Shown here piece after piece: positions 24,957 to 35,819 of a stretch of 64,000 nucleotides of DNA. Within the stretch, counting starts at the first letter, position 1; each line of letters starts with the position of its first letter. This stretch comes from Ktedonobacterales bacterium (GTDB lineage: Bacteria; Chloroflexota; Ktedonobacteria; Ktedonobacterales; DATBGS01). The stretch covers positions 1-64,000 of the forward strand of contig DATBHW010000045.1 in assembly GCA_036557285.1 (NCBI GenBank). The letters run 5' to 3'. Below the pieces are notes generated by a model. It was not told the DNA's origin, searched no databases, and was given only the letters and a program-made list of their open reading frames with translations. Both the position numbers and the translations under genes were made by a program.

Positions 24957-27509
24957 TCACCTCCTTACCTCTCCGCTTGCCAACTGGCTCTGGATCAGGT
25001 GGGTATAGTAGCCATTACGGCTGAGCAATTCCTCATGAGTTCCACGCTCGACAATAGTGCCTTGATCCATGACCAGGATAAGATCGGCATTGCGAATAGT
25101 ACTCAAGCGGTGCGCAATGATGATTTGCGTGCAGCGTAACGCGTGTAAGTTGCGTTCGACGGCCTGTTCGGTTACGACATCCAGTGCGCTGGTAGCCTCA
25201 TCCAGCAACAGTATAACCGGATTCGTTGCCAGCGCCCGTGCGAGTCCCAGCCGCTGGCGTTGGCCTCCAGAAAGGGCGCTTCCACCCTCCGCAACAGCGG
25301 TTTCGTACTCCATCGGCATCTGAAGGATGTCCGTGTGGATGGCAGCGGCTGAGGCAGCCTGGACGATTTGCTCCATCGGCATTCCAGGGTGATTGAGGGC
25401 AATGTTTTCTCGGATAGATCCGCTGAAAAGCGTCGTGCCCTGCGTTACGACTCCAAATTGTGCACGAACTGCCTGGTAATCCAGCGTCCGCAGTGAGAGA
25501 CCATTGTAGTAAATCTCTCCAGTCGTCGGCAGATACAGGCCCAGCAGCAGCATGCCCAGTGTACTTTTGCCTGACCCGGTGCGCCCGACAATGGCTACCT
25601 TCTGTTGGGGATGAATTACCAGGTGAATATCATGCAGCACGACTGGGGATTGCGGCGCATATTGAAACTGCACATGCTCCAGGCGAATATGCCCAGTGAG
25701 TCGTGGTGGTTGGCTGACCGCCTGTATCGGTTGCTCTGGCTCTGCTTCCAGCACATCAGCCACTCGTTCCAGGTGGGAGCGCACCAGTTGAAGCTGTTGC
25801 CCATTTGACACCAGCGAGCCGAGAGGCGTCAGGAAGGACGTAACCAGGGCCACCAGGGCCAGCATGGTTCCTGCATCGAGCGCGCCATTAAGGACTTGCG
25901 CGGTCCCGATGACGAGCAAGAGCAAAGGGGCAAACGCACGCAGGTTCGTCACCAGCGTATCCACCAGAGACGAGAAGTAGTTCCGACGTACCGAGGCATT
26001 CATTTGCTCGAAGAAAAGATTGGTCCAGCGCTCCAGTGCTCGCTGTTCGGCTCCTGCTGCCTTGAGAGTCGTGACCCCCACCAGGGCTTCGGCGGCATAG
26101 CCCTGAAATTTCCCCTGAGTGAGTAGCTCCTGCTTGGCAAGCGGTTGGATCATACGCGTGGAAACGATAAGCATGACCACTTGCAGGAGGCCAATAGCCA
26201 GGGTCAACCACGCAAAGATAGCTGACTGGCTGAAGAGGATAATGAGATAGGTGATGACAAAACTGCCATCGAGGAACGTTGAGATCAACTGATTGCTGAT
26301 GGTGTCACGAATGATGCTATTGCTGCTTAAACGGGCGAGAATATCGCCGCTTGAACGCTGATGGAAGAAGCGGAGCGGCAGCGAGAGTAACTGCTCAAAG
26401 AAGTTGAGCATCATTCGGGTATCCACGCGGGTTTGCAAATAGAGCAGGAGTGAGGCCCGCAGCAGCATGACGACCGATTGGGCTGCAATGAGAATGAACA
26501 AGCCGATAGCTAGCACCAGCAAGACATCCTTGAGCTTGAAAGGAAGAATCTGATCGATCACAATAGCCGTCAGGAGGGGCACAGCCAGCCCAAAAAGCTG
26601 GAGCAAGAGCGAGGCGCCAAGGATTTGCGCCAGAGACACTGGAGCAATTTTCAGGTAGTTCAACACATAGCCACGCAGATCGATCTTTCGTCCCCTGGTA
26701 GTCTGGTCAAAACGTACACCTGGCTCCAGCATGATCACAATACCAGTGAAGCCGTTGAAAAACTCTTCGCTGCTCAGACGGCGGCGTCCCAGTCCAGGAT
26801 CAACGACTTCTACCTGGTGAGAAGACGCCCGCTCGACGATCATAAAGTGGTTGAACTCCCAGTGAATAATGGCTGGCAAGGTGATCAGCCGGAGGTCGTT
26901 TTCCTGGAGCGAGACGGCTCGGACACGGAGGCCATAGGTGCGCGCAGCTTTGACAATATCCAGGGCAGAGAGACCATCGCGCCCGACCTGGCAATGTTCG
27001 CGCACTTCGGAAACGCTGGTTCTTCGCCCGTAATAGCTCAGGATCATGGCGAGGCAGGCGGCGCCACATTCCACCACGCTCATCTGAAGCAAGACGGGTA
27101 CCCGTCGTGGTCGCAGCTTCGCCAAAAGTTTTCGCCACCGGGAAAGCCTTGCCTGCTGCGGTGGTGCGATGCGAGCTGTTTCAGACGCTGCCGTCTGAGC
27201 AGGAGCAGGCTCTTGGGTTCCAGCCAGAGCAGCCGACTTTGTTGGCAGGGGAAGCTGCGCTCGGTCTCGTTCAAGCTCTTCCTGAATCAACGCGCTGAGC
27301 GCGCGCGTTTGCCTGGCTTGCGCCTGCTCGCGGTGTTCAATGACTTGCGCCAGGGCTGGTGAGACCCCCTGTGGCTGCCCTGGAGTAATGAGACCGCTGA
27401 GCAACGCTGACCGGCGCTGGTAGTACAGCCGCCGCTCTTCGGGCGAAAGCAGAACCGTCGTCTCGTCATCTTCAGTTCCCGGTGGGGGGAGATAGTCACG
27501 GCGGTCCAT
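24957..27509 (-). CDS. peptidase-containing ABC exporter (NHLM / LanT type)
   Basis: An 850-residue lanthipeptide exporter that cleaves the leader and pumps the peptide across the membrane. After a polar ~135-residue extension comes the C39 peptidase: Cys148 (SVVECGAACLAMI), His221 (HWEFNHFMIVE) and Asp237 (VVDPGLGRR). An ABC transmembrane domain (~290-570) follows. The ATPase has Walker A GRTGSGKST, signature LSGGQRQRLGLARAL, Walker B VILLLDEATSALD and H-loop IIIAHRLSTIR. It starts 4 nt after the adaptor gene and is expressed from the promoter element at 28169-28224. Its partners are the precursor and LanM at 32-35.8 kb. Confidence 0.95.
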   Translation of the reverse strand: MDRRDYLPPPGTEDDETTVLLSPEERRLYYQRRSALLSGLITPGQPQGVSPALAQVIEHREQAQARQTRALSALIQEELERDRAQLPLPTKSAALAGTQEPAPAQTAASETARIAPPQQARLSRWRKLLAKLRPRRVPVLLQMSVVECGAACLAMILSYYGRRTSVSEVREHCQVGRDGLSALDIVKAARTYGLRVRAVSLQENDLRLITLPAIIHWEFNHFMIVERASSHQVEVVDPGLGRRRLSSEEFFNGFTGIVIMLEPGVRFDQTTRGRKIDLRGYVLNYLKIAPVSLAQILGASLLLQLFGLAVPLLTAIVIDQILPFKLKDVLLVLAIGLFILIAAQSVVMLLRASLLLYLQTRVDTRMMLNFFEQLLSLPLRFFHQRSSGDILARLSSNSIIRDTISNQLISTFLDGSFVITYLIILFSQSAIFAWLTLAIGLLQVVMLIVSTRMIQPLAKQELLTQGKFQGYAAEALVGVTTLKAAGAEQRALERWTNLFFEQMNASVRRNYFSSLVDTLVTNLRAFAPLLLLVIGTAQVLNGALDAGTMLALVALVTSFLTPLGSLVSNGQQLQLVRSHLERVADVLEAEPEQPIQAVSQPPRLTGHIRLEHVQFQYAPQSPVVLHDIHLVIHPQQKVAIVGRTGSGKSTLGMLLLGLYLPTTGEIYYNGLSLRTLDYQAVRAQFGVVTQGTTLFSGSIRENIALNHPGMPMEQIVQAASAAAIHTDILQMPMEYETAVAEGGSALSGGQRQRLGLARALATNPVILLLDEATSALDVVTEQAVERNLHALRCTQIIIAHRLSTIRNADLILVMDQGTIVERGTHEELLSRNGYYTHLIQSQLASGEVRR

Positions 27510-27513
27510 TCGC

Positions 27514-28092
27514 TTACCCTCCCAAGACCCCTTGCAGCAACTCTGGCAACAGCGAGAGTACCGAGCGCGACCCTACCTGGACCTGGGCGCTGATCCTCCT
27601 ACCGACAGACATATCAGGGGGGAGTGGTGTTGCCAGTGTGGCTGTCACAATGACCGAGGGCTGGCTGATGGTAAAGGCCAGATCACCAGTGAGTCCGTAG
27701 CGCGTCCGAGCATTAGCCGGGGTGATGACGCCCACTTCAATTGCGCGAATAACTGCCTGGAATTGCTCACCAGTTGCCGCAAGCTGAAGGTTGACTGCTT
27801 GCCCAACCTGCACTTCCGGGGAGAGGGGGAAAGGGACAAAGAGTAGCGCCAGCACTTCGCCGGTGTGCTGAGGCGTGATCTGCTCATTTTGGATAAACAG
27901 TCCTGCCGCCCCGGCGTATCTTGGTACCTGTGCTTGCCAGGCAAGCACAATGGAAGTGAGCAGAAGCCCCAGGAGTATCCACAGGCAAAGGAGGAAGGGT
28001 GGGGCAACCGAGCGTGGTAAGATGGTTTTCTCCTGCCGCTGTGCATAGTGATCGAGCGCCTGCTGGCGAAAAATGTGCTGTCGCTGGACCAT
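27514..28092 (-). CDS. HlyD-like secretion adaptor of the peptide exporter
   Basis: A 192-residue protein starting MVQRQHIFRQQALDHYAQRQ, with one membrane helix (SVAPPFLLCLWILLGLLLTS) and an extracytoplasmic domain containing LFVPFPLSPEVQVGQAVNLQ, a barrel-sandwich-like region. The N-terminal R..AL.H... preceding the helix is typical of secretion proteins in NHLM bacteriocin systems. It is shorter than most HlyD proteins and lacks the coiled-coil hairpin, as expected for a single-membrane exporter. GGTGGAGC precedes the ATG at 28092. Co-transcribed with the exporter. Confidence 0.8.
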   Translation of the reverse strand: MVQRQHIFRQQALDHYAQRQEKTILPRSVAPPFLLCLWILLGLLLTSIVLAWQAQVPRYAGAAGLFIQNEQITPQHTGEVLALLFVPFPLSPEVQVGQAVNLQLAATGEQFQAVIRAIEVGVITPANARTRYGLTGDLAFTISQPSVIVTATLATPLPPDMSVGRRISAQVQVGSRSVLSLLPELLQGVLGG

Positions 28093-28168
28093 GCTACATG
28101 CTCCACCGTTCCAATGTTCACCTCGCAAGATCCTGCGGGCGGTTCTGAGCGCGTGTTTGACACTGCTC

Positions 28169-28224
28169 AGCGTAGCAGAAACGGCAGGGCAAAAACAGGT
28201 ACAACTGGTACTGGAACTGATACA
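28169..28224 (-). promoter_or_regulatory. lanthipeptide regulon element A (exporter operon)
   Basis: The 30-bp element 28195-28224 on the reverse strand starts TGTATCAGTTCCAGTACCAG and ends TTGTACCTGT. A -10-like TACGCT (28169-28174) lies exactly 20 bp downstream. It heads toward the adaptor-exporter operon. It shares sequence and spacing with elements B and C. No TTGACA -35 is visible, which suggests an activator site overlapping -35. Confidence 0.75.
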
Positions 28225-28287
28225 ATTCACCCGGCCAGACGGGCAGAGCAATAGAACAAACGCCGGAGAGAAAGCAAGAGCGTGGAG

Positions 28288-31200
28288 TCATTCTACGCTT
28301 GCCCGATCAGTGGGCAAGGGAAGCTCTTCAAGCGCCTGCTGGATGACTCCTGCGTAGAGTTGCTCACCAAGGCGATGGAGGATGATCAGTGCCGCCTCGA
28401 AGTGTTCGCGCGCTGGCCCAGTCTCCCCTCGCAGGTGAGAAACCCGCCCTGCTACAAAGAGCGTTTTGGCTTCGGCGTAGGGCCAGGGCATCTCTCGACA
28501 AAGTTTCAATGCTGCTTCTAGTGCCTCCTCAGCCTCTTGCCAACGCGCTTGTTTTGCTGCGAGCCGCGCCTGTACTAGCAACACCTCCAAAAGCACTGGC
28601 CGTAGCTGCTCGCCAGTTGCTCCAATGCGCGCCTGCTCTACCAGGCGCTGGGCCTGGGTTTTCTCTCCAAGTTCTAACTGCGCCCAGGCCACCAGCGGAA
28701 GCAGGGAGAACGGGTTCCGCTGTTCTTGTGTGGCCTCCTCCAGAAGAGGCTCCAGGCGATCACACGCTTGTTTTGGAGCGCCCAGGAGAAGCTCTTGTTC
28801 TGCCAGCATACTCTGCGCCATACGGAGCGCCAACAGGTCTTCGCTGCGTTTGGCAAGTTCAGTAGCTTCCTCCAGATACGCTCTGCCAGCCTCCTGGCCT
28901 TGAGCCAGAAGTTGCGCGCCAAAATTGAGCAGGGCATAGGCCGCTCCCCAGGGCATCCCTGCCTGGCGCAACAAGGTGATCGCTTTCTCATAATCCTGCT
29001 GGGCCTGGCGCCAGTCTCCCAGCACGGAGGCATTAAACCCACGACTTGCCAGGACATGCGCCAGAAGCACTGGCGCGTCCATCTGCTCAGCCAGAAGAGT
29101 TGCTCGCTCAGCATACTGTTTCCCAGCAATCGGTTCACCCCGCTCATCGGCAATCAGACTGAGGTTAGAGAAGACGTGACAGAGACACCGCAGATCACCA
29201 GCTTGCTCAGCCAGCGGAATGGCGGCTTCAAGCGCCTGCACTGCTTCTTTCAGACGACCGAGCAGCATAAGCACTCTGCCCAGATACCACCGTGCCACGC
29301 CCAATTGTCGGGCATCCTGGGCCTGCTGAGCCAGATCAACGGCCTGCCGCGCTGCGGATAACGCCTCGGTATTTCGGCTGCTGTTCATCAAGAGATAGGT
29401 CAGGGTGAGATACAACGCGCATCGCCGGTAGGTCGAGAACGTATAAAGGCTGGGGGAAGCAAGCCAGTGTTGCAGAAAAGGAATACCCTTTTCTGCGGCG
29501 CCGAGTGCCGCGTAGACGTGTCCTATCTGCTCCACTACCTTTGCTTGCTCTTCAAGATCGTTGGTCTGCTGATAAAACGCAAGTGTCTCTTCGAGGATGG
29601 GAAGCGCGCCTCTATATTGCCCGCGCACAAAGAGGACACCGCTCAGCTTAAAACGTGCCCGCGCCGCCTCGCCAGGGCGCTCCAGTTGGATCAGGCGCTC
29701 TAGCCACGCCCGGTAGTACCGCTCGGCCTGCTCATGGGCATAGACGGTTCGGGCGTGGTCTCCGGCGAGTTCGAGATAAGCAATTGCTTTCTCTGACAGC
29801 CCGGCCTGACTATAGTGATACGCAAGTACCGCAACTGGCGGATGCATCTCTTGTTCCAGGATTTCAGCAATTTGCTGGTGCAGGATAGCCCGCCGCACCG
29901 CGCTCATACCCTCTGCCAGCACTTCGCGAATGAGATCGTGGGCAAACGCATAGCTATGTTCGCCTTGTTCCACTAACAGCCGCGCCTGGCAAGCCTGTTC
30001 CAGAGCCAGAAGCACCGCCCGTTTGCCCCATCCCAGTTGGGTAGCCAGCGCCAGCAGAATTGATCGGCGCGCATTGTTCCCCACCACAGCTACGGCTCCC
30101 AGCAGGTACTGCGCCTCCTCTGAGAGGGCGCCGACCCGCTGCCGGATGGTTTCAGTAACCTGCCAGGGAATGGCCTCCCCGGCTGCGCCACCCCATGTTC
30201 CGGTGCGCAACCCCTGGGCGCAACTGACCAGAAAATAAGGCACACCACCAGCGCGCCGAAGAACCGTCTCCACCAGCGGCGCCTCCTGGTCTATGGTGGA
30301 GCCAGCCAGCAGCAGGCCCAGCAATTTTTCGGCATCTGGAGACGCGAGCGGGCCAAGTTCCAGGCGCTGGGCGCCAACCTCACGGGCCAAATCTGCCATT
30401 GCCAGGCTGAGGGGATCGGTTGAGAGGACTTCGTTATGGCGGTAGGCGCCGATAATGCGCAATGGTCGCCTGGCATTGGACCGAAAGAGGCTTGTCAGCA
30501 AATCGAGTGTATCAACGCTGGCCCACTGAAGATCGTCCAGAACCAACAGCGTGCCGGATGCTCCCGCGATGTTGTCCAGAAAGCGCCGCACGGCAGCAAA
30601 GAGCAATCTGCGCTCCTGGGCAGGTGGAACGTTCCAGGGAGGCAATGAGAGGCCAGCTACCTCTGCCAGTTCTGGGAGCAGCCGAAGCAACCAGCCGCAC
30701 TGCTGCAACGCTTCGCGTTGCCCTGCCAGGGACTGGTGGGCCAGGTAGCGTTCCAACGCGCCAAGCAGCGGAGCATACAGTTCCTGATCGCTGTGCCGAT
30801 GACAGCGGCCATCCAGGACGCGCCAGCCATGCCGCTGCCCCTGCTGGGCAGCTTCCTGTAAGAGACGCGTTTTGCCGATACCTGGTTCACCCAGCACCAG
30901 GAGCAGGAGTGGCTCCTCATCAGCGAGGTAGCGCGCCAGAAACCTCTGCTCTTCCGTCCGCCCAACCAGCGGCAAAAGAGCGACGTTGGCAGTGGAAACA
31001 TTCGCTTGAGGCTGCCAGCGAGTGACTGAAGAGGTTCGTTGGGCTGCACCTTCGAGCGTCGCGCGCTCGCTGGAATCCAGCCCCAGAGCTTCAGCCAATG
31101 TAGCCACCGTAAAAGCGAGTGGCTGTCGCTCTCCTCGTTCTAATTTGCTCAAGTAGGTGGTGCTGTAGCCAGCGCGCTCGGCCAACATTTCTTGCGTGAA

Positions 31201-31296
31201 ATGAGCGGCTCGCCGGTAGCGTTTCAGCAAGACTCCGAATGAGGAAAGAACGTCGGCAGTTGTATCGGTTTCAGTATCAGTTGTACCTGTCAACCT
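28288..31296 (-). CDS. XRE-AAA-TPR transcriptional regulator (AfsR/MalT-like)
   Basis: About 1,000 residues. An N-terminal XRE helix-turn-helix (FGVLLKRYRRAAHFTQEMLA, RAGYSTTYLSKLERGERQPL) is followed by an AAA/STAND ATPase with Walker A VLGEPGIGKTRLL and Walker B LLVLDDLQWASVDTLDLL, then many TPR-like repeats to the C-terminus. The TTG at 31296 with AAGAGG upstream is preferred; a GTG at 31392 would add 32 residues. Element B overlaps its first codons. The gene sits between the three regulon elements, so it is the likely pathway-specific regulator of the cluster (inferred). Confidence 0.85.
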   Translation of the reverse strand, partial: RLTGTTDTETDTTADVLSSFGVLLKRYRRAAHFTQEMLAERAGYSTTYLSKLERGERQPLAFTVATLAEALGLDSSERATLEGAAQRTSSVTRWQPQANVSTANVALLPLVGRTEEQRFLARYLADEEPLLLLVLGEPGIGKTRLLQEAAQQGQRHGWRVLDGRCHRHSDQELYAPLLGALERYLAHQSLAGQREALQQCGWLLRLLPELAEVAGLSLPPWNVPPAQERRLLFAAVRRFLDNIAGASGTLLVLDDLQWASVDTLDLLTSLFRSNARRPLRIIGAYRHNEVLSTDPLSLAMADLAREVGAQRLELGPLASPDAEKLLGLLLAGSTIDQEAPLVETVLRRAGGVPYFLVSCAQGLRTGTWGGAAGEAIPWQVTETIRQRVGALSEEAQYLLGAVAVVGNNARRSILLALATQLGWGKRAVLLALEQACQARLLVEQGEHSYAFAHDLIREVLAEGMSAVRRAILHQQIAEILEQEMHPPVAVLAYHYSQAGLSEKAIAYLELAGDHARTVYAHEQAERYYRAWLERLIQLERPGEAARARFKLSGVLFVRGQYRGALPILEETLAFYQQTNDLEEQAKVVEQIGHVYAALGAAEKGIPFLQHWLASPSLYTFSTYRRCALYLTLTYLLMNSSRNTEALSAARQAVDLAQQAQDARQLGVARWYLGRVLMLLGRLKEAVQALEAAIPLAEQAGDLRCLCHVFSNLSLIADERGEPIAGKQYAERATLLAEQMDAPVLLAHVLASRGFNASVLGDWRQAQQDYEKAITLLRQAGMPWGAAYALLNFGAQLLAQGQEAGRAYLEEATELAKRSEDLLALRMAQSMLAEQELLLGAPKQACDRLEPLLEEATQEQRNPFSLLPLVAWAQLELGEKTQAQRLVEQARIGATGEQLRPVLLEVLLVQARLAAKQARWQEAEEALEAALKLCREMPWPYAEAKTLFVAGRVSHLRGETGPAREHFEAALIILHRLGEQLYAGVIQQALEELPLPTDRASVE

Positions 31297-31317
31297 TATA
31301 CCTCTTGGGAGTATGTT
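31261..31317 (+). promoter_or_regulatory. lanthipeptide regulon element B (DUF3237 gene)
   Basis: The 30-bp element 31261-31290 starts TGTATCGGTTTCAGTATCAG and ends TTGTACCTGT. The -10-like TATGTT (31312-31317) is 21 bp downstream, directing transcription to the DUF3237 gene at 31438. The element also overlaps the 5' end of the divergent regulator gene, so bound protein could affect the regulator's own expression. Confidence 0.75.
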
Positions 31318-31437
31318 CACCCCAGCCAAGGGCAAGAATCTACCTCGCACATCAGTTGCTGCTAGTATAGCTGAAAACGGAAGCAGACGCACGATCCAGG
31401 TTCACATTGCCATTCCCAGAAATGAGAGGTCAGAAAG

Positions 31438-31872
31438 ATGAGGCTTGAGCATCTCTGTGATATGGAACTTGGGTATCAAGGTGGCTTCACCCTGATTCAA
31501 CCCTACGCCAGCGAGGAAGGGACCGGCTTTGGAACCGGGGAAGGGATTGCCTCTGGAGACCAGCTTGCTGGACGGATTCGCTGGGTGAACCATCCCCAGC
31601 GCCGCAGCGATGGCGTCATGTTGCCTAATGCGCATGGGGTGATTACCACAGGGGACGGAGCGCCGATCCTCTTCACCTTGCAAGGGCGCACGATGGGTAC
31701 CCAAACCACCCTGAGTTGGCAGGGCCAGCACCTGCTCACCGCGCTCTTCGAGGCCGAGGACGAACGCTACCGCTGGCTAAACACGACCCTGTGTATTGCC
31801 GAGGGGCGGCAAAACCCCGAGACAATGCGCTTTCAATTGCATATCTACACCTGCCTGAGTGACCAACGCTGA
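31438..31872 (+). CDS. DUF3237 family protein
   Basis: A 144-residue protein of the DUF3237 (UPF0311) family, a small beta-barrel: GYQGGFTLIQPYASEEGTGF, SGDQLAGRIRWVNHPQRRSD and HGVITTGDGAPILFTLQGRT match the family pattern. The biochemical role of the family is not known to me. It lies inside the lanthipeptide cluster, under its own copy of the regulon element, so it may act in peptide modification, immunity or sensing. No signal peptide. Confidence 0.85.
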   Translation: MRLEHLCDMELGYQGGFTLIQPYASEEGTGFGTGEGIASGDQLAGRIRWVNHPQRRSDGVMLPNAHGVITTGDGAPILFTLQGRTMGTQTTLSWQGQHLLTALFEAEDERYRWLNTTLCIAEGRQNPETMRFQLHIYTCLSDQR

Positions 31873-32048: not shown

Positions 32049-32384
32049 ATGGCTCAAGAGCATCAGCAACAAGACCCAATCGTCGCCAAAGCAATGCGAG
32101 ACACAACATTCCGGCAGCGATTGCTCAGCGATCCCAAGGCTGCATTACAGGCCGAGTTCGGCGCCACCGTTCCCCCAGGGGTCAACATCCATATTCATCA
32201 GGAGACTCCAACGGACATCCATATCGTCATCCCTGGAGAAGCACAAGTGGGTATGAGCGATCTATCTGATGCCGAACTCGAACAGGCTGTTGGTGGCCGC
32301 CCCCGCGATGGGGTTGGCGGAGGCTGCTGCACCTGTGGGGCGAGCACGCATCAGACGCTCTCTACACTACAGAGTTGCAGATAA
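32049..32384 (+). CDS. class II lanthipeptide precursor with NHLP leader
   Basis: A 111-residue precursor. The leader is of the nitrile-hydratase-like (NHLP) type: DPKAALQAEFGATVPPGVNI, then VNIHIHQETPTDIHIVIPGE and LSDAELEQAVGG. The C39 peptidase should cut after a GG. Two are possible: AVGG|RPRD and a second at DGVGG|GCCTCG. The core carries four Cys (CCTC....SC) and seven Ser/Thr after the first Cys, enough for up to four (methyl)lanthionine rings. It is the only precursor I find in the cluster, and the modifying enzyme follows 123 nt later. Confidence 0.9.
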   Translation: MAQEHQQQDPIVAKAMRDTTFRQRLLSDPKAALQAEFGATVPPGVNIHIHQETPTDIHIVIPGEAQVGMSDLSDAELEQAVGGRPRDGVGGGCCTCGASTHQTLSTLQSCR

Positions 32385-32458: not shown

Positions 32459-32507
32459 CTCCCTTTGCATCTTGAGTGGAGCAGTCATTTCGGCGCAACA
32501 AGGGGGA

Positions 32508-35500
32508 ATGATGCCAGCCTTATCTCTCGTGCAACCCGCTGTACTCAGCATCATTGCAGCGGCTAGTTCTCTTGATGAACGGCTAGGCGCTGCTTTCGTT
32601 TCCGAGAGCAGCGAAGAAAGCCACGAAGTTGTCAACGCGCGCCTTGATACATGGCGCCAGGTCATCGCCAGGGGGAATTGGGATCTGTTTCAGCAGCGTC
32701 TGGCCTGGGACGGCCTTGATGTAGAAAAAGTACGGGGCGTTCTTGGCAAGGTACATATGCGTGAGGGCGCAGCCCTTCCCTCCTGGGCAAGCCTGCTGGA
32801 TGCCGTTTTGAGGCTCGCCATTGCTCCATCTGGTTCGGCTAAGCGCCGCAACCTGGATCACCCTGCTCATCTGCGCTGTCTTGTCCCCAGCGACCCTCTT
32901 CCTTTTGAAGAACTCATCACTCCATTCCTTCTCGTAGCCCAGCAGCGGCTGAAGGAACATGCCGGAGCCGCTTACCACCTTTTGAGCTGCGAGGCGCATA
33001 CCTCCCTCGAACGCCATCTGCTTCAGGAGTTGACTGGCTATGCCGCGCGGGCTTTTCACCTGGAGTTTTCTCTTAAACGTTTCCAGGCGCGTTCTCCTAT
33101 AACACGCCTGCTGAGTGAGCTTCAAGACTCCGATGATCGCACGCTCTATCAGGACTTCGTTGAACAGATACTTGGCGGGGAACTGATAGAGTTCTTCCAG
33201 CACTATCCTGTCCTTGCCCGGCTGCTGGCGAGGGTTACAGAACTCTGGGTCGAAGCCACTGCTGAGTTTCTTGGACGATTGGCGGCTGACTGGGCGAGCA
33301 TTGAGCAGGTATTGGGGGCTGCCGATGCGTTGGCGCAGGTCGTCAAGATCGAGGCTGCGCTCTCTGACCCGCATCGTGGCAGGCGTAGTGTCCTGGCGCT
33401 CACGTTCGCATCAGGCCACAAGCTGGTGTACAAACCCAAGAACCTGGGCATTGAGGTGGCCTATAATCGCCTTCTTGCCTGGATGAATGAGCAGGGTATC
33501 TCCCTCCCGTTCAAAATACTCACCGTTATCAACCGGGGAAGCTATGGTTGGGTGGAATTTGTCACGCAGCTGCGCTGCCAGGATGCGGAGGCAGGGCGGC
33601 GCTATTATCAGCGGGCGGGGATGTTGTTGTGCCTGATGTATGTGTTGGTGGGAACGGACTGCCATCATAATAATCTGGTTGCTCACGGCGAACATCCGGT
33701 GCTGGTGGATATGGAGGCGCTGATGCAGCATCGCGCTTATCTGGAAAGCCTGGATGACGGCGTGCAGGCACAGTTGCTGGCCCAGGAGATGATCGCCGAT
33801 TCCGTGCTGCATACGGGCTTCTTACCAAGCTGGCAGATAGACAAAAATGGACACCAGGCTTACGATATCAGTGGTCTGCGTGGCCCTGACGAATTGGTGT
33901 TCGAGACGATAGCCTCACGTTGGGAACATGTGAATACTGATCGGATGGAACTCAAGTCAAAGCCGATCAAAGTGGAGGCGTCAACTGACTACACCTCACA
34001 AAACGGCATCTCGTTGCTCCTGGCCGAACATGGCGAAGACGTCCTTACCGGGTTCGAGCACTGTTATCGGTTCCTGCTGGCTCACCGGGAGTCGCTCCTG
34101 AAGCCTGGCAGCCCGCTCTATGATCTGAAGCACCAGCAGCTTCGTCTGATCTACCGCAATACCCAGGTCTATGGTTCGTTGTTGCAGTGCCTGCTCGCCC
34201 CTCAGTATCTGCGTGATGGAGCCGACCGGACCATCCAACTGGAGGCGTTGGGATTGGCAGTCATGCCACCCCCAGAAGTTTCCTCGCAGAGACGTCAGTG
34301 CTCGCGCTGGTGGCCCATTCTGGCAGAAGAGCAGCAGGCAATGCAGCAAATGGATATTCCATTTTTCAGCACCCGTGCTGACAGCGACAGCCTCATCCTT
34401 CTCTCCGGTCAGAGCATCGAGGGCTGTTTCCGGGGGCCGAGTTTCGATCTGGTCATCAGCAGATTGCAGGCACTCTGCGCCGAAGATTTAGAGCGGCAGC
34501 TTGGTTTCATCTCCGGCTCGCTCTATGCTTACGTTGCGCGCGATCCGGTAGGGACACCTGTCAGGAGTGATGCCTCCCTCTATGGAGAGCCGGTTGCTGC
34601 CGATGAGCAGGTGAAGCCAGAGCGCCTCCTGGCCCATGCCCTGCAACTCGCAGAAACGATTGACCGTCACACCATTCGCGCGAGTGATGGGAGCGCATCC
34701 TGGATTGTGCCCCAGTATATGTCCTGGGCAGATCGCTACCAACTTCAACCAGTTGGGTATGACCTCTATTCCGGCGTCTGCGGCATCGCGCTCTTTCTGG
34801 CTGCGGTAGAGCGGGTCACTGGTGGCGCTGGCTATCGTGAACTAGCCCTGGGCGCGCTACAACCACTCCGCAAGGCCCTCCATCTGTACGGTTCACGGCT
34901 GGCGAAAGAGCTGGGTATTGGTGCAGCCACCGGCCTGGCTTCGGTCGTCTACACCCTGACAGCCATCAGCCAATTGCTCGACGAGCCTGCCCTGTTGGCT
35001 GACGCCAGACAAGCGGCTGAGTTGATCACCTTCGAGAGCATTGCTAAAGATGAGGCTCTCGACATTTTTGATGGTTCGGCTGGGGCGCTGCTTGGGTTAC
35101 TCGCGCTCTATGGCGTGGCACCTGACCAGAGCATCCGGGACCGCGCTGTGGCTTGCGGAGAACGCCTGTTGGAAGCACGGATGTGCAGCCGTTCTGGCTA
35201 TCGAGCCTGGCCGGGTTTCACTGGCAAGCCACTGACGGGCTTCTCGCACGGGGCTGCCGGGATAACATATGCGTTGCTGCGCCTTTATGCTCTTACCCAC
35301 AACACCTGCTATCAAGAAGCAGCCGACGAAGGTATTGCCTACGAGGATAGCACCTTCCTGCCAGAGATCAATAACTGGCCGGACCTGCGCTCAGAGGAAT
35401 CACTGGAATTCCGCGTTGCCTGGTGTCATGGCGCGCCCGGAATCGGCCTGGCACGCCTGGGTGGCCTGCCATCCCTGGATACGGATCAGGTACGCAAAGA

Positions 35501-35819
35501 CATCGAGATTGCCCTGCACAGGACAGAGCAAGAAGGAGTACAAGCCCTGGATCACCTCTGCTGTGGCAATATGGGCCGAGTAGACATCCTGCTCACTGCT
35601 GCTCAGCAGCTATCAGACCTTCGGCTTGCGAGGGTTGCCGGGCAGGCTATGGGGCAAATGGTCAGGGGAGCAGAACAAAGGGGCGCGTTTGCGCTGGACC
35701 CTTTGTTGCCGAGGCAGGTACAACATTTCGGCTTTTTTCAGGGTACTGCTGGTTTGGGGTATACCCTGCTGCGCGTGGCGTATCCAGGGCAGCTTCCTTC
35801 CGTGCTGCTCTGGCAATAA
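32508..35819 (+). CDS. lanM: class II lanthipeptide synthetase LanM (ProcM-like)
   Basis: About 1,103 residues. The dehydratase domain (~130-600) includes LALTFASGHKLVYKPKNLGI, LVGTDCHHNNLVAHGEHPVL and VDMEALMQHR, the kinase-like site that phosphorylates Ser/Thr before elimination. The LanC-like cyclase (~740-1100) has the zinc Cys973 in WCHGAPGIG and Cys1018-Cys1019 in HLCCGNMGR. This CCG motif (three Cys ligands) marks the ProcM-type clade; most LanMs have CHG. GFFQGTAGLGYTLLR closes the domain. Starts: tandem ATGs at 32508 and 32511 after AAGGGGG. It modifies the precursor at 32.0 kb. Confidence 0.95.
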   Translation: MMPALSLVQPAVLSIIAAASSLDERLGAAFVSESSEESHEVVNARLDTWRQVIARGNWDLFQQRLAWDGLDVEKVRGVLGKVHMREGAALPSWASLLDAVLRLAIAPSGSAKRRNLDHPAHLRCLVPSDPLPFEELITPFLLVAQQRLKEHAGAAYHLLSCEAHTSLERHLLQELTGYAARAFHLEFSLKRFQARSPITRLLSELQDSDDRTLYQDFVEQILGGELIEFFQHYPVLARLLARVTELWVEATAEFLGRLAADWASIEQVLGAADALAQVVKIEAALSDPHRGRRSVLALTFASGHKLVYKPKNLGIEVAYNRLLAWMNEQGISLPFKILTVINRGSYGWVEFVTQLRCQDAEAGRRYYQRAGMLLCLMYVLVGTDCHHNNLVAHGEHPVLVDMEALMQHRAYLESLDDGVQAQLLAQEMIADSVLHTGFLPSWQIDKNGHQAYDISGLRGPDELVFETIASRWEHVNTDRMELKSKPIKVEASTDYTSQNGISLLLAEHGEDVLTGFEHCYRFLLAHRESLLKPGSPLYDLKHQQLRLIYRNTQVYGSLLQCLLAPQYLRDGADRTIQLEALGLAVMPPPEVSSQRRQCSRWWPILAEEQQAMQQMDIPFFSTRADSDSLILLSGQSIEGCFRGPSFDLVISRLQALCAEDLERQLGFISGSLYAYVARDPVGTPVRSDASLYGEPVAADEQVKPERLLAHALQLAETIDRHTIRASDGSASWIVPQYMSWADRYQLQPVGYDLYSGVCGIALFLAAVERVTGGAGYRELALGALQPLRKALHLYGSRLAKELGIGAATGLASVVYTLTAISQLLDEPALLADARQAAELITFESIAKDEALDIFDGSAGALLGLLALYGVAPDQSIRDRAVACGERLLEARMCSRSGYRAWPGFTGKPLTGFSHGAAGITYALLRLYALTHNTCYQEAADEGIAYEDSTFLPEINNWPDLRSEESLEFRVAWCHGAPGIGLARLGGLPSLDTDQVRKDIEIALHRTEQEGVQALDHLCCGNMGRVDILLTAAQQLSDLRLARVAGQAMGQMVRGAEQRGAFALDPLLPRQVQHFGFFQGTAGLGYTLLRVAYPGQLPSVLLWQ

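Follow-up and report, generated by a model that had tools for sequence, protein, structure and literature searches.

The LanM enzyme encoded in the window (the whole stretch of 64,000 nucleotides analysed here) is best read, with a probability that we put at roughly 80%, as a bifunctional class II lanthipeptide synthetase from the CCG (three-Cys) group, one that would be dedicated to a single substrate. Its gene, lanM, occupies 32472..35819 of the plus strand (1115 aa from the TTG at 32472, with the ATG at 32508 the more likely start), and the product scores 917.5 bits against TIGR03897. As the definition of a LanM demands, a DUF4135 dehydratase (PF13575, 33204..34373, plus strand) and a LanC-like cyclase (PF05147, 34749..35810, plus strand) are joined in a single chain, and we take the LanM fold as settled on the strength of sequence similarity to solved LanMs. 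All kinase and lyase residues of the dehydratase domain are intact, including the kinase motif DCHHNN (33657..33674, plus strand), whose D396, H398 and N401 correspond to D347, H349 and N352 of CylM. This conservation is meaningful because CylM loses dehydration when D347, N352 or D364 is changed to alanine, and loses elimination with T512A (PMC4550811).

Alongside this complete set of dehydratase residues the enzyme carries three Cys ligands for zinc. The 141 bases 35424-35564 translate as CHGAPGIGLARLGG...LDHLCC, the first codons giving CHG, which begins with Cys985 (of WCHG; 35424..35426, plus strand), and the last giving CC, Cys1030-Cys1031 (of CCG; 35559..35564, plus strand), followed by GN. 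These residues align with WCHG...CHG of LicM2 (6st5), with the WCKG...CHG region of CylM (5dzt) and with WCHGAPG...DHLCCG of ProcM, and are therefore true zinc-ligand positions; the zinc-ligand residues were also invariant in our first alignment of CCG LanMs. Both the translation and the alignment thus confirm the WCHG and CCG ligands proposed in the initial annotation, whose numbering (Cys973, Cys1018 and Cys1019, 12 lower than ours) fits a count from the ATG at 32508. Three-Cys zinc sites are uncommon amongst LanMs, and ProcM is famed for its relaxed specificity.

The putative substrate is LanA, a precursor peptide of 111 aa (32049..32384, plus strand), which shows the combination expected of an NHLP-leader RiPP precursor: a match to TIGR03793 above the cut-off (63.3 against 50.9 bits), which bears out the NHLP-type leader proposed earlier; a leader (32049-32297) whose C-terminal end, ...LEQAVGG, supplies the Gly-Gly; and a Cys-containing core, RPRDGVGGGCCTCGASTHQTLSTLQSCR (32298-32381). 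The GC content of lanA and lanM (0.57-0.58) is near the window value of 0.59. A gene for a DUF3237 protein (31438..31872, plus strand; PF11578, E 3e-8) immediately precedes lanA. Divergent from lanA and lanM are the genes for an HTH-AAA-TPR (STAND-type) regulator (28288..31392, minus strand), situated between exporter and lanA; a one-TM accessory protein without family match (27514..28251, minus strand; likely start ATG 28095), which is probably the membrane-fusion partner of the exporter; and LanT, a C39 peptidase-containing ABC exporter (24957..27509, minus strand; PF03412/PF00664/PF00005) with the catalytic-type motifs VVECGAAC, HFMIVE and VVDPG. The position of the exporter, on the opposite strand and 5-7 kb away, might be taken to indicate a silent or decaying cluster, as might the failure of a simple scan, ill-suited to this phylum, to find a sigma-70-like promoter upstream of lanA; however, the long intact frame of lanM, the conservation of all its active-site residues and the presence of an intact precursor and C39 exporter make that very unlikely. 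A paralogue of the accessory protein adjoins two Cys-free double-glycine peptides on contig C18 of genome G000 (about 89200-89850; peptides at L223 1438-1668 and 1692-1859, minus strand), a second and probably non-lanthipeptide export cluster, and these peptides, with their Cys-free cores and own exporter-accessory gene, were rejected as LanM substrates.

In the mechanism that we infer from these genes, LanM would bind the NHLP leader of LanA, its N-terminal domain would phosphorylate core Ser/Thr and then eliminate, the three-Cys zinc site would add core Cys thiols to the Dha/Dhb so formed, and the C39 exporter would cut after Gly-Gly and secrete the product. Cys10 and Cys11 of the core stand N-terminal to all of its Ser/Thr, so that rings from either, if formed, would have to reach downstream Dha/Dhb. 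Such rings, from Cys to downstream Dha/Dhb, are allowed in the ProcM clade. Amongst Cys-containing cores of the sampled clusters, 28 of 45 near CCG LanMs require rings of this 'reverse' kind, against 14 of 67 near CHG LanMs (Fisher p 2e-5), these being counts over related, phylogenetically non-independent rows with core starts set automatically. NpuM, which has three Cys zinc ligands and one substrate, forms rings in both directions (PMC13060382), and the order of residues in the window core suggests that its rings, too, may in part link a Cys to a Ser/Thr further downstream. The window thereby adds a Chloroflexota, NHLP-led and apparently single-substrate enzyme to the three-Cys LanMs, and together with NpuM suggests that the CCG motif may be tied to ring direction or core architecture, not to promiscuity.

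No window-like core was found among the NHLP peptides of 400 Chloroflexota genomes. The pattern CCxC..HxTL is common to the window core and the core at L208 7695-7898 (minus strand; the same precursor occurs in L183), which is the only other precursor in 2.9 Mb with the motif CCxC..HxT and belongs to a kinase-dead cyanobacterial CCG LanM cluster; the match may reflect chance or a common ring scaffold.

To place the enzyme we classified LanMs from 61 relatives, from the 47 genomes belonging to its class, from 80 named loci of a genome scan and from cyanobacteria, the ProcM genome among them; a single-sequence LanM query against the genome contigs gave no match, and the 80 loci were obtained with a seven-row alignment query. 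Locus L198 in genome G344 we take to be ProcM of Prochlorococcus MIT9313, from the 38 Nif11 leaders of that genome, the spacing of the zinc ligands and the published residue numbers. A cyclase tree from which the three zinc columns had been excluded has a single branch parting CHG-type from CCG-type enzymes, and the window LanM falls with ProcM on the CCG side, apart from the CHG enzymes; the tree is unrooted, and the CCG group is accordingly one side of a branch, its status as a clade being unproven. Within it the window LanM groups with Ktedonobacterial CCG LanMs (bootstrap 95, SH-aLRT 87), and the same group is recovered from the dehydratase domain with the catalytic columns removed (SH-aLRT 98). 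A clade of the window LanM with ProcM is disfavoured (AU p 0.04), and the two proteins share 28.5% identity, which places the window LanM, as far as its sequence indicates, outside ProcM's own lineage. The earlier description of a ProcM-type cyclase in a Chloroflexota-like genome therefore stands as to the genome, which belongs to the order Ktedonobacterales, as do Dictyobacter and Ktedonobacter, and as to the form of the zinc site and the wider CCG group, but not as to the ProcM lineage.

The closest lineage consists instead of kinase-dead Ktedonobacterial CCG LanMs (cyclase identity 57% to L111), and it might be supposed that the window enzyme is likewise a cyclase-only or half-dead protein needing a partner dehydratase, since both domain trees place it nearest to kinase-dead CCG LanMs from tandem pairs. 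We regard this as extremely unlikely, as the window LanM retains all kinase and lyase residues and its genome is without a second LanC-domain protein.

The dedicated, single-substrate reading is favoured by the precursor complement of the source genome (97% complete, 82 contigs), which was searched by family profiles and by alignment. The profile searches found one LanC domain, one NHLP leader over the cut-off (that of lanA) and, in this 97%-complete assembly, no Nif11 leader; no short-leader lanthipeptide precursor was found in the genome either, and a second NHLP-like match (E 0.09) and other weak leader matches were at chance level and were set aside. The ProcM genome, in the same search, has 38 Nif11 leaders and picocyanobacterial genomes have 21 to 53. 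The many precursors of diverse core per LanM that characterise diversity-oriented systems are thus not seen here, and these counts leave a broad natural substrate range unsupported for the window enzyme. A precursor may possibly have been missed in a genome of this completeness and contig number, and tolerance in vitro could be compatible with a single genomic precursor.

The initial annotation had seen only one precursor, correctly, and had gone on to predict a relaxed LanM with further precursors elsewhere in the genome, which would make it a ProcM-like generator of diversity acting on numerous, varied cores encoded throughout it. The CCG motif and placement on the CCG side speak for such an enzyme, but the search found no NHLP leader beyond lanA, the enzyme lies outside ProcM's lineage, and promiscuity is not implied by CCG alone: NpuM has three Cys ligands and a single substrate (PMC13060382), and MalM is unable to modify ProcM substrates (PMC12328550). 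We accordingly consider a diversity generator very improbable. A published survey reports that NHLP leaders pair with CHG LanMs and Nif11 leaders with CCG LanMs (PMC10027976); this pairing is broken by the window and by many of the sampled CCG clusters (e.g. L059, L060, L067, L071, L075, L080, L091 and L095).

Of the characterised systems, that of NpuM, the nostolysamide synthetase of Nostoc punctiforme, resembles the window in combining a three-Cys class II LanM with a C39 exporter and a single substrate peptide whose core has four Cys (PMC13060382); it differs in that NpuA has a Nif11 leader whereas the window precursor has an NHLP leader, and in that the npu cluster includes an acyltransferase, NpuN, of which no counterpart was seen directly beside the window lanM. 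ProcM shares the form of the zinc site, an intact kinase and its side of the tree, but sits on a separate long branch and has Nif11 leaders, with 38 leader matches against the one NHLP precursor of the window. CHG LanMs (such as LicM2, CylM and RosM) have the same two-domain architecture and dehydratase residues but His as third zinc ligand in place of Cys, and those sampled fall on the CHG side of the tree. The kinase-dead CCG LanMs of Dictyobacter, Ktedonobacter and Ktedonosporobacter (L070, L111, L073, L101 and L084) are of the same order and have the three-Cys site, but have lost the DxHxxN residues, adjoin a second LanM and are accompanied by short, non-NHLP leaders.

These last enzymes are more interesting than the window gene, which is their intact relative. 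All other CCG LanMs found in Ktedonobacteria have lost DxHxxN, with NTH, NTQ, NLH, QFH or NFH at the D/H/N positions, and each adjoins a second LanM in which the DxHxxN residues are intact. There are seven such pairs: two in Dictyobacter aurantiacus (L070 and L111), and one each in K. robiniae (L073), K. sp. SOSP1-85 (L101), Ktedonosporobacter (L084/L216), G040 (L215) and G032 (L086 and L217, on two contigs, the pairing being deduced from fragment coordinates). The tree places the CCG members on its CCG side and their partners on its CHG side, and in 6/7 partners the zinc site is lost, through replacement of zinc residues in five (Ala/Ala in L073 and L101; Ser/Tyr in L070 and L215; in L217 Tyr at the second ligand, with the first ligand position in a gap) and through absence of the cyclase domain in one (L084). 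The partner of L111 retains its zinc ligands, and may therefore be bifunctional. Between K. robiniae and SOSP1-85, dN/dS is 0.28 for the CCG protein (0.29 for its kinase-dead half) and 0.28 for the partner, so that neither looks like a pseudogene, and the precursors at the Ktedonobacterial pairs have Cys-containing cores and short leaders.

It thus appears reasonably probable that a Ktedonobacterial lineage has divided LanM function between reciprocally degenerate neighbours, which together would form a two-protein class II synthetase, and that the window LanM is the un-split relative of this lineage. In such a pair the CCG-clan protein would have kept its cyclase and lost its kinase, and the CHG-clan protein would have kept its dehydratase and, in 6/7 pairs, lost its cyclase. 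A topology in which the kinase-dead group forms one clade without the window, which bears on the number of kinase losses (one or two), was not rejected (AU p 0.15). The available portion of one earlier report notes the two-LanM cluster of D. aurantiacus as related to cyanobacterial LanMs and makes no mention there of active-site loss (PMC6497799), and in the accessible parts of the open-access literature we found no report of a split LanM, or of a LanM cyclase combined with a class V dehydratase. If confirmed, reciprocal loss of kinase and zinc site in adjoining LanMs would show a bifunctional RiPP enzyme dividing into two, and the pairs would be a natural source of cyclase-only and dehydratase-only LanMs.

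Further LanM clusters were encountered outside these pairs. In a Chloroflexi marine biofilm MAG (L066/L228), a 66 aa NHLP leader without a core adjoins a bifunctional CCG LanM, possibly a leader without core or a frame error. Zinc-less LanMs of Nostocales (L076, L079 and L082) adjoin NHLP precursors with predicted Cys-free cores, and these clusters are apparently dehydration-only; 20/24 predicted cores near zinc-less LanMs are Cys-free (including one from a Chloroflexota fragment, L128), and the remaining four belong to L086, a CCG gene truncated at the end of its contig. At L207 (6112-13234, cyanobacterial genome G172), a kinase-dead CCG LanM adjoins a HopA1-domain protein, an LxmK-like kinase, the match to which is below the model cut-off, and a Cys-containing Gly-Gly peptide. 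HopA1-domain protein and LxmK are the dehydratase parts of class V lanthipeptides, and L207 may be a hybrid that combines a dehydratase of class V with a cyclase of class II. Both the zinc-less Nostocales LanMs and L207 point the same way as the split pairs.
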